This document shows positions 46,238 through 49,133 of a stretch of DNA of 64,000 bases, piece by piece. The stretch lies in the NCBI RefSeq assembly GCF_001245615.1, contig NZ_CWKH01000001.1, forward strand, positions 558,001-622,000, given 5' to 3'. A program made the position numbers and the translations under genes. The notes beneath the pieces were generated by a model that was given only the letters and a program-made list of their open reading frames with translations, did not search any database and was not told the origin of the DNA. The DNA is from Mycolicibacterium neworleansense (GTDB lineage: Bacteria; Actinomycetota; Actinomycetes; Mycobacteriales; Mycobacteriaceae). How positions within the stretch are numbered: position 1 is the first letter of the stretch; every line of letters starts with the position of its first letter.

Positions 46238-46675
46238 GTGGTCGCGGCGGCGGGGACGGACTCAGGCCCGAACTACGCCCACATCCTGGGGATCCACAAG
46301 GATCAGATCGTCCAGGAACTGGGTTGGGACGAGGATAGCGACGACGACATCCGGGCCGACATCGAGGAAGCGTGCGGTTCCGAGCTGCTCGATGAGGATT
46401 CGGACGAAGTCGTCGACGTCGTATTGCTCTGGTGGAGGGACGACGACGGGGATCTTGTCGACCGGCTCATGGACGCCATCACCCCACTCGCCGAGGACGG
46501 CGTGATCTGGGTGGTGACTCCCAAGACCGGTAAGGCTGGGCACGTGCTGCCCGCCGAGATCGCCGAATCGGCGCCGACGGCCGGTCTGATGCAGACCTCG
46601 TCGGCCAAATTGGGGGACTGGACGGCGAGCCGGTTGGTGCAGCCGAAATCGAAGGCCGCCGGAAAGCGGACCTGA
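46238..46675 (+). CDS. DUF3052 family protein (Rv2239c equivalent)
   Basis: A 145-residue conserved actinobacterial protein. ILGIHKDQIVQELGWDEDSD near the N-terminus and DGVIWVVTPKTGKAGHVLP in the second half are typical of DUF3052. It is strongly acidic in the first half (DEDSDDDIRADIEEAC). AGGAGG lies just before the GTG start. Its stop overlaps the ahpE start by one base (TGATG), so the two are co-translated. Function unknown. Confidence 0.92.
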   Translation: MVAAAGTDSGPNYAHILGIHKDQIVQELGWDEDSDDDIRADIEEACGSELLDEDSDEVVDVVLLWWRDDDGDLVDRLMDAITPLAEDGVIWVVTPKTGKAGHVLPAEIAESAPTAGLMQTSSAKLGDWTASRLVQPKSKAAGKRT

Positions 46676-46962
46676 TGCTGGCCGTCGGTGCCCCGGCGCC
46701 CGATTTCACGCTCCGGGACCAGAACGGCAGGCCGATCACCCTCAGCGCGTACCGCGGTGCCAAGGACGTGCTGCTGGTGTTCTTCCCGTTGGCGTTCACC
46801 GGTGTGTGTGAAGGCGAACTCGGCGAGATTCGCGACAAGCTGCCGCAGTACGAGAACGACGACACCGCGACCCTGGCGATCTCGGTCGGTCCGCCTCCGA
46901 CGCACAAGATCTGGTCCATCGAAAGCGGATTCACCTTCCCGGTGCTGGCCGATTTCTTTTAA
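46675..46962 (+). pseudogene. ahpE: AhpE peroxiredoxin fragment (N-terminal about 94 residues), cut by adapter-like sequence
   Basis: N-terminal part of one-Cys peroxiredoxin AhpE, which reduces peroxides and peroxynitrite using mycothiol or mycoredoxin. The peroxidatic Cys is in PLAFTGVCEGELGEI, and VGAPAPDFTLRDQNG is the standard start. Full-length AhpE is about 153 residues; here the sequence is normal up to FTFPVLADF and then reads into an adapter-like palindrome and a stop. The second half of the domain is missing. The cause is most likely an assembly artefact (see the junction at 46952-46989) rather than a natural mutation. Confidence 0.9.
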
Positions 46963-46989
46963 ACACATCTAGATGTGTAAAAGAGACAG
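46952..46989. other. Sequence resembling the Nextera/Tn5 mosaic-end mate-pair junction (probable assembly artefact)
   Basis: Bases 46971-46989 read AGATGTGTAAAAGAGACAG, differing by one base from the 19-base Tn5 mosaic end AGATGTGTATAAGAGACAG used in Nextera kits. Bases 46952-46970 match the reverse complement at 15 of 19 positions, with the central ACACATCT/AGATGTGT exact. The back-to-back arrangement is that of the Nextera mate-pair circularisation adapter. Flanking sequences are halves of two different genes (ahpE left, cobC right). Confidence 0.85.
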
Positions 46990-47246
46990 CCCGCCGGCTG
47001 GCCGAGCTGCGGGCGGCGATGGCTACCGGGCTCGAGAGGCTCGGACTGGACGTGGTGGCCGGCGCGGCGCCATTTGTGCTGTTCACCGTGCCCGACGCGG
47101 AGCTGATGCGAAAACATCTGGAAAGCAAAGGCATTGCGGTACGGCGTTGCGATACGTTCGTGGGCCTGCCGGAGAATTACCTGCGTGCCGCGGTGCGGCC
47201 GGAATGGCCCGCACTGATCGACGCCATGACGGAGGTGCTGAAATGA
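46990..47246 (+). pseudogene. cobC: CobC-like aminotransferase, C-terminal fragment
   Basis: About 85 codons encoding the end of a class I/II aminotransferase similar to CobC (Rv2231c), which acts on threonine phosphate in the cobalamin pathway or on histidinol phosphate. The visible sequence [18 protein letters not shown] and [20 protein letters not shown] is the typical C-terminal domain; the PLP-binding Lys region and everything before it are missing. An internal ATG at 47019 gives an apparent 75-residue frame, but the reading frame is open back to the adapter-like junction. The stop overlaps the next gene (ATGA). Almost certainly truncated by the assembly join. Confidence 0.85.
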
Positions 47247-48376
47247 CCGCGCGAGGCGCCGGGGTGCCGTTGGCAGAGGTGATCGCCGCGCTGGACGCGG
47301 CGTACCCGCCGCACCTGGCCCACGACTGGGATTCGGTGGGTCTGGTGTGTGGGGATCCCGGCGAACCGGTCGAATCGGTGACGATCGCGGTGGACGCGAC
47401 CGAGGCCGTGATCGAGGAGGTTCCCGAGCGCGGTCTGCTGCTCGCGCACCACCCGCTGCTGCTGCGCGGTGTGGACACCGTGGCGGCCGACACCGCCAAG
47501 GGCGCGCTGATCCACCGGCTGATCCGCACCGGGCGGGCCCTGTTCACCGCGCACACCAACGCCGATGCGGCCTCACCCGGCGTGTCCGACGCGCTGGCCG
47601 AGGCGCTGGGCCTGACCGTCGACGCGGTGCTGTCCCCGGCTGCGCCGGGCCCCGATCTGGACAAGTGGGTGGTGTTCGTACCGGCCGCGGACGCCACCAC
47701 GGTGCGAGAGGCGCTGTTCGACGCCGGTGCCGGGCGCATCGGCGACTACTCGCACTGCAGTTGGAGTGTGGCCGGAACCGGGCAGTTCCTGCCGCACGCC
47801 GGCGCGGCCCCGGCCATCGGCGAGGTGGGCACCGTCGAGCAGGTGGCCGAGGACCGGGTGGAGGTGATCGCGCCCGCGCGGCTGCGTGCGGCCATCCTGT
47901 CCGCACTGCGCTCCGCACATCCGTATGAGGAACCGGCCTTCGACATCTTCGCGCTGGCACCGATCCCCGGTGAGGTCGGAATCGGCCGGATCGGCGAGCT
48001 GGACCGACCGGTTCGGTTGTCGGAGTTCGCTTCCCGGGTACGCGCCGCGCTTCCGGCCACCTCGTGGGGAGTGCGAACCTCAGGTGATCCCGACGCCATG
48101 GTGTCGCGGGTCGCGGTGTGCGGGGGAGCCGGCGATTCCCTGCTGGGCACGGTGGCCCGGGCCGGCGTAGAGGCTTACGTCACATCGGATTTGCGGCACC
48201 ACCCGGCCGACGAGCACCGCCGGGCCTCACCGGTCGCGCTGATCGACGTGGCGCACTGGGCCACCGAATTCCCCTGGTGCGGCCAAGCTGCCGAAGTGCT
48301 GCGCGGGCAGTTCGGTGACGCCCTGAAGGTGCGGGTGTCGTCGGTACGCACCGACCCGTGGAACGTCGAGTGCTGA
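47243..48376 (+). CDS. Nif3-like dinuclear metal-binding protein (Rv2230c equivalent)
   Basis: A 377-residue NIF3/YqfO-type protein (often annotated GTP cyclohydrolase 1 type 2). Conserved metal ligands are in [25 protein letters not shown] and the C-terminal [12 protein letters not shown]; a central insertion domain (about residues 130-240, with [20 protein letters not shown] and [13 protein letters not shown]) is of the CutA-like type found in long Nif3 proteins. Biochemical role remains uncertain. ATG overlaps the cobC stop (ATGA). Confidence 0.93.
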
Positions 48377-48404: not shown

Positions 48405-49133
48405 ATGAAAGCCGAAGTAAAACAACAACGTTCGCTTCTCGCGCTGACCGAGGTCGATGCCGAACTCGGGCGTCTCGCGCACCGCGCCAAGAACCTGGCC
48501 GAACAGAAGAAGGTGGACGAGGCGCAGGCTGAGCACGCCGCGGCCAGCGACGGGGTGGGTGTCCTGGGCATCGCATTGGAAGACCTGGACGCCCAGGTGA
48601 CCAAGCTCGAGAGCGAGATCGACTCGGTGCGTCAGCGCGAGGACCGCGACCGTGGGTTGATCGACGGCGGCACGGTGGGCGCCAAACAGGTCGCCGAGAT
48701 CCAGCACGAACTGGAAACGTTGGAGCGCAGGCAAGCCAGCCTGGAGGACTCGCTGCTTGAGCTCATGGAACGGCGTGAGGAACTGTCCGGCCAGCAGGCC
48801 GAGGCGCTGCAACGCATCGATGACCTGCAGACCACCCTGTCGGCGGCGCAGCAGGCGCGCGATGCCGCACTGGTGGAGATCGACCAGGCCAAGCATCAAG
48901 CGGTGACCCGTCGCGACGGACTGGTGAGCGTCATCGATCCCGAACTCGTCGCCCTGTACGAACGGCTGCGGGCCCGCGGGGGTGCCGGCGCCGGGTTGCT
49001 GCAGGGCCGGCGCTGCGGTGCCTGCCGGATCGAGATCGACCGCGGCGAGAGCGCCCGCATCGCCGCCGCCGCCGAGGACGAGGTGTTGCGCTGCCCCGAG
49101 TGCGGGGCGATCCTCTTGCGGATCAAGCAGTGA
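48405..49133 (+). CDS. Coiled-coil protein with C4 zinc ribbon (Rv2229c equivalent)
   Basis: A 242-residue protein whose first about 180 residues form long charged coiled coils (LEDLDAQVTKLESEIDSVRQ, LELMERREELSGQQAEALQ) and whose C-terminus is a zinc ribbon: RRCGACRIEID and LRCPECGAILL provide four Cys. This CT398-like family is thought to bind nucleic acid or act as a scaffold; function not established. Stop overlaps the RNase H/phosphatase gene by 4 bases. Confidence 0.92.
   Translation: MKAEVKQQRSLLALTEVDAELGRLAHRAKNLAEQKKVDEAQAEHAAASDGVGVLGIALEDLDAQVTKLESEIDSVRQREDRDRGLIDGGTVGAKQVAEIQHELETLERRQASLEDSLLELMERREELSGQQAEALQRIDDLQTTLSAAQQARDAALVEIDQAKHQAVTRRDGLVSVIDPELVALYERLRARGGAGAGLLQGRRCGACRIEIDRGESARIAAAAEDEVLRCPECGAILLRIKQ

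Follow-up and report, generated by a model that had tools for sequence, protein, structure and literature searches.

The neighbourhood of ahpE in Mycolicibacterium neworleansense raises the question of whether this strain has lost a block of genes or whether its assembly was wrongly closed. In the window (the whole stretch of 64,000 nucleotides analysed), ahpE breaks off in mid-gene and is followed, after a short adapter-like segment, by the end of cobC. The ahpE–cobC join is almost certainly an assembly artefact, in which a real gap of ~6 kb was closed with adapter from mate-pair reads, and the gene loss seen there is very probably not biology. On the plus strand, the first 94 codons of ahpE (46675–46956; Pfam AhpC-TSA, E 6.4e-22) are genuine and the remainder is missing: the Pfam match ends at profile position 89 of 124, and codon 94 is followed by one more codon (F), then a stop. 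The cobC remnant (46989–47246, plus strand) lacks its start and consists of the last 85 codons and the stop. It matches Pfam Aminotran_1_2 at profile positions 277–346 of 361 (E 9.2e-5) and is 87–89% identical to the cobC end of five relatives (L043, L044, L045, L049 and L033); the sequence-only reading of this DNA, which took the codons after the segment for the CobC C-terminus, is borne out by these 85 codons from 46989. The next gene downstream is an open reading frame at 47243–48376 (plus strand), which we take to be NIF3-like. Its frame (46973–48376) is open upstream as far as an ATG at 46973 within the adapter, and automatic annotation may start there, giving a falsely long NIF3-like N-terminus.

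The segment at 46952–46989 matches the 38-base mate-pair circularisation adapter, made of two back-to-back Tn5 mosaic ends, at 33 of 38 bases. As the sequence-only reading had described, a normal ahpE runs into a palindrome-like segment of 38 bases, whose right half (46971–46989) differs from the mosaic end at one of 19 bases and whose left half (46952–46970) matches its reverse complement at 15/19. The proposal that this is the circularisation adapter gains weight from the controls. In an ungapped scan of the whole window the site scores 33, a self-overlap two bases away scores 23 and the highest non-overlapping position scores 21, and the top score in each of 20 base-shuffled windows is 19–22. 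The mosaic-end 19-mer, at three mismatches or fewer, occurs once in the window and never in 100 dinucleotide shuffles. A chance palindrome is ruled out by these shuffles, and a 38-base palindrome of two mosaic ends, far above chance, is what a mate-pair junction artefact would leave. The full 38-mer has no match at three mismatches or fewer, because the site itself differs at five bases. The likeness to the junction adapter thus lies in 33/38 bases, the palindromic arrangement and the position at the false join; the window copy departs from it by its five differences and by a left half cut to 13 bases. We take the 38-mer to be the Nextera mate-pair junction adapter. It is given in full, as a biotin-labelled ring adapter that circularises fragments of ~4 kb, in passages of PMC7357533; those of PMC6298255 describe trimming of Nextera mate-pair junction adapters with NxTrim and do not contain the adapter letters.

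The limits of the insert follow from two sets of alignments with relatives, which share the stretches L033 and L034: set A (11 stretches, at most 10 distinct; alignments of 300 bases or fewer omitted) and set B (six stretches; alignments under 80 bases omitted). All of them (11/11 and 6/6) stop at 46957. Five of the stretches in set A (L033, L043, L044, L045 and L049) regain homology at 46989 or 46998. Of the six in set B, L033 and L035 do so at 46989 and L037 at 47271; the remaining stretches of both sets have no downstream match within the stretch compared at the cut-offs used. From these alignments the foreign piece is about 46958–46988 (31 bases), and homology to relatives is interrupted on either side of it (46957 and 46989). 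The limits first proposed for the adapter, 46952–46989, need one adjustment: since the alignments run to 46957, the first 5–6 bases are genomic ahpE. Base 46957 (plus strand) is ambiguous and fits ahpE, whose next codon (W) starts with T, and the join alike. The adapter then comprises a left half shortened to 13 bases (46958–46970, no strand assigned; 11/13 match) and a right half, one Tn5 mosaic end (46971–46989, no strand assigned; 18/19), whose final base is common to cobC.

What the join leaves out can be judged from 86 relative stretches (the best 80 of 446 loci plus six further stretches; at most 85 distinct, as L034 and L046 are on contigs of equal length, 461,966 bases). The comparison with relatives that the sequence-only reading had proposed shows ahpE running on past the break in 86/86 of them, continuing with WPHG for 57–63 residues after residue 94. 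The claim that several kilobases are missing between the two genes likewise holds up: among these best 80 of 446 plus six, the cobC end is found in 32/86, always 4.3–9.2 kb past the break, and is unfound in 54/86, 39 of which have at least 9 kb of flank. Within the same 86 stretches, the NIF3-like gene is found in 36, 4.6–9.5 kb downstream, and at least one of cobD, SURF1, ptpA, HAD and cobC lies downstream, inside the sequence compared, in 47. L033, a near relative, has an interval of 5,948–5,949 bases between ahpE and cobC, which by Pfam encodes a glyoxalase-like protein, an MPAB oxygenase-like protein, CobD, SURF1, a low-molecular-weight tyrosine phosphatase and a HAD protein, with these genes sitting ahead of and around the CobC start. 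The names ptpA and ptkA presumably apply to genes of this interval, and in M. tuberculosis the genes from about Rv2237 to Rv2232 (cobD, ptpA and ptkA included) presumably lie between ahpE and cobC. The interval is 5,950 bases long in M. porcinum (L043) and 6,461 in M. septicum (L044). The spot adjacent to ahpE is variable among close relatives: in L042, L047 and L050, ahpE is separated from the glyoxalase/MPAB/cobD genes by roughly 4–6 kb more than it is in L043 or L044. None of the expected genes was found within 10–11.6 kb after ahpE in L034, L046 and L048. The missing length, put at ~6 kb from these sequences, is an estimate, because the cobC end is unfound in 54 of the 86 and close relatives vary after ahpE. 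High G+C is a weak candidate for the cause of dropout, the G+C fraction of the interval being 0.69–0.72 in four of five relatives and 0.637 in M. septicum.

If the interval had merely moved, it should be found elsewhere in the assembly containing the window (G000; 6,287,317 bases, nine contigs), which is listed as 100% complete. As a DNA query, the L033 interval gave five weak matches (67–80% identity; 40 of 489 first-look candidates scored). These all fall in the part covering its MPAB oxygenase-like gene and are, on that ground, probably paralogues. CobD and SURF1 proteins had no match in the assembly, and the Pfam CobD model has no hit in it; as a positive control, this model matches 14 of 15 same-genus relatives, the one miss being an assembly that is 72% complete. 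The other interval genes were searched as DNA only. Relocation was thus rejected on paralogous DNA matches (40/489 candidates scored) and the lack of CobD and SURF1, and the interval is absent as far as searched. The same absence would suit a real deletion of ~6 kb in the strain, with adapter reads bridging or overlaying its junction afterwards, as would the correct order of the flanks and the differing content next to ahpE among relatives. A genuine junction, however, needs no adapter bases between its flanks, full ahpE is kept in all 86 relative stretches (best 80 of 446 plus six), and a second adapter copy lies at an unrelated place in the assembly. A real deletion is therefore highly improbable.

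This second copy emerged from a search with a mismatch-tolerant pattern of the adapter core. The pattern occurs at exactly two places in the assembly, the one at ahpE–cobC and a second degenerate copy outside the window (G000:C1:549333-549370; L122:9334-9371; 32/38), which lies in a gene that, from its translation, we take to be protein kinase-like. Both copies sit within a gene at a break of homology with relatives, and several copies at unconnected sites are what an adapter artefact would produce. Unlike the first, the second stands where two relatives have 309 and 361 bases and is preceded on its left by sequence similar to another contig. The assembly shows 94 and 104 unaligned bases at this site against 309 and 361 in its two nearest relatives, and the 66 bases ending at the first base of the copy match a gene on contig C2 (presumably UDP-glucose-dehydrogenase-like, from its translation) at 59/66. 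All seven differences are G in the C2 source and T at the second site; differences in one direction alone would suit a low-quality read inserted unpolished.

The adapter is by its nature exactly a circle junction, and the ahpE–cobC join might on that account have arisen when one mate-pair circle junction, or a pair of unrelated fragments ligated together, was taken for genomic sequence in the assembly. A chimera of this kind may explain the second site, with the DNA left of its adapter resembling a gene on another contig. At ahpE–cobC, however, a single circle would reverse the ends, placing the cobC side first, and two random fragments would hardly be expected in the correct order and strand ~6 kb apart; alignment to relatives upholds the earlier statement that the two flanks stand in correct order. 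Such an origin is even less credible than a deletion. A natural Tn5/IS50-like insertion or remnant, suggested by a mosaic end of Tn5 type, can practically be discarded and is ruled out as a transposon, given zero bases between the two halves and hence no interior transposon DNA, unlike flanks with no 9-base target duplication by eye, a mosaic end that is an engineered hybrid, and a loss of 6 kb of neighbouring genes that an insertion leaves unexplained.

The proposed closure from adapter-bearing reads agrees with what is known of the library. According to the announcement (PMC4645216), M. neworleansense ATCC 49404T was sequenced in MiSeq runs from a single 5-kb mate-paired library, and the workflow consisted of Trimmomatic, SPAdes 3.5, SSPACE 2, Opera 2, GapFiller 1.10 and homemade Python tools, yielding 6,287,317 bp in nine contigs ‘without gap’. 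The assembly was thus built from a mate-pair library, as an adapter artefact presupposes (PMC4645216); the kit was probably Nextera, to judge from the adapter, the library being called only mate-paired in the announcement. The earlier suggestion of a faulty closure from mate-pair reads therefore fits, with the second copy, the interval unfound as far as the assembly was searched, and a 5-kb mate-paired, gap-filled assembly as described in the announcement all in accord.

It is tempting to propose the following course of events. Reads across circularisation junctions would carry the palindromic 38-base adapter, and adapter copies with several read errors would escape trimming; read errors may indeed lie behind the 4–6 mismatches per copy. 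Such reads could extend the contig edges in ahpE and in cobC into adapter. Since the adapter reads alike on both strands, these extensions would overlap, and the software would close the real gap of ~6 kb with adapter in place of sequence. A merge by palindrome overlap is plausible and would come naturally, because a palindromic adapter gives both edges an identical extension. The join may have been made by GapFiller, by the assembler or by the homemade scripts. As described in passages of PMC3446322, GapFiller grows contig edges by read k-mers and by default joins two extensions once they overlap by 10 bases or more, refuses closures >50 bases off the gap estimate and needs a coverage of 2 per base. 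These defaults are at odds with the filling of a 6-kb gap by 31 error-bearing bases, and the closure would therefore call for a different step, changed settings or an erroneous estimate of the gap. No paper reporting this misassembly was found among the matches listed from open-licence PMC papers.

Similar copies occur in other mycobacterial assemblies. Among 396 same-genus genomes (the assembly itself included, drawn from a larger genus group), the core pattern matches four (G000, G113, G150 and G247) and its reversed control none (0/396); in a set of 41 genomes it matches G000 alone. This search tolerated three mismatches in the central 22 adapter bases, so that copies more degenerate than these would escape it and perfect ones would not. 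The three others have two sites each (L147–L152; 32–34/38). All eight genus-sample copies differ from the 38-mer at 4–6 bases and none is perfect, which would follow if the better ones had been lost to trimming and database screening. G113 is M. bohemicum DSM 44277 (NZ_CSTD01000001.1), which resembles the M. neworleansense case in coming from the same group and an Illumina workflow and in having two degenerate copies; according to passages of its announcement, a 5-kb mate-paired library was supplemented with 454 data (PMC4541277). As a lead, not a proof, G150 (5.9 Mb) and G247 (6.5 Mb) may be M. interjectum and M. houstonense, whose genomes of 5,927,979 and 6,451,020 bp are, in passages of their announcements, mate-pair drafts from the same group (PMC4882957, PMC4882952); unlike the assembly of M. 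neworleansense, these drafts were assembled with Velvet. Among the matches listed, six Mycobacterium genome announcements name all the elements of the M. neworleansense workflow that were looked for.

A 38-base score of at least 26 was reached among the named stretches (best 80 of 446) only in M. bohemicum (L057, score 29). This stretch (L057:18314-18351; 29/38) lies in a gene matching 48405–49133 of the window, and homology to four relatives is lost there over ~126 bases. Elsewhere in M. bohemicum, at L057:16928-16941, homology jumps from the MPAB-like to the NIF3-like gene, where L058, L063, L088 and L103 have 4.3–4.7 kb; no adapter was seen at this join. The short neighbourhood of M. bohemicum at L057:16928-16941 could be either a real loss or another false join.

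The adapter site is not a real feature; its biological interest is low and its use lies in quality control and as a warning for users of the reference. Degenerate adapters can slip through screens for near-exact copies, and a 38-base scan at six mismatches or fewer recovers all eight copies. It is likely that error-bearing adapter copies form a systematic, screening-resistant scar in mycobacterial type-strain references from one workflow, and that some gene absences in these references are false. As searched, the M. neworleansense assembly is without cobD (cobalamin), SURF1, the ptpA homologue, most of cobC and part of a peroxiredoxin, and comparative work would take these absences for gene loss. 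If the artefact reading is true, the absences of cobD, SURF1, ptpA, the ptkA-like gene and most of cobC in this assembly would be false.
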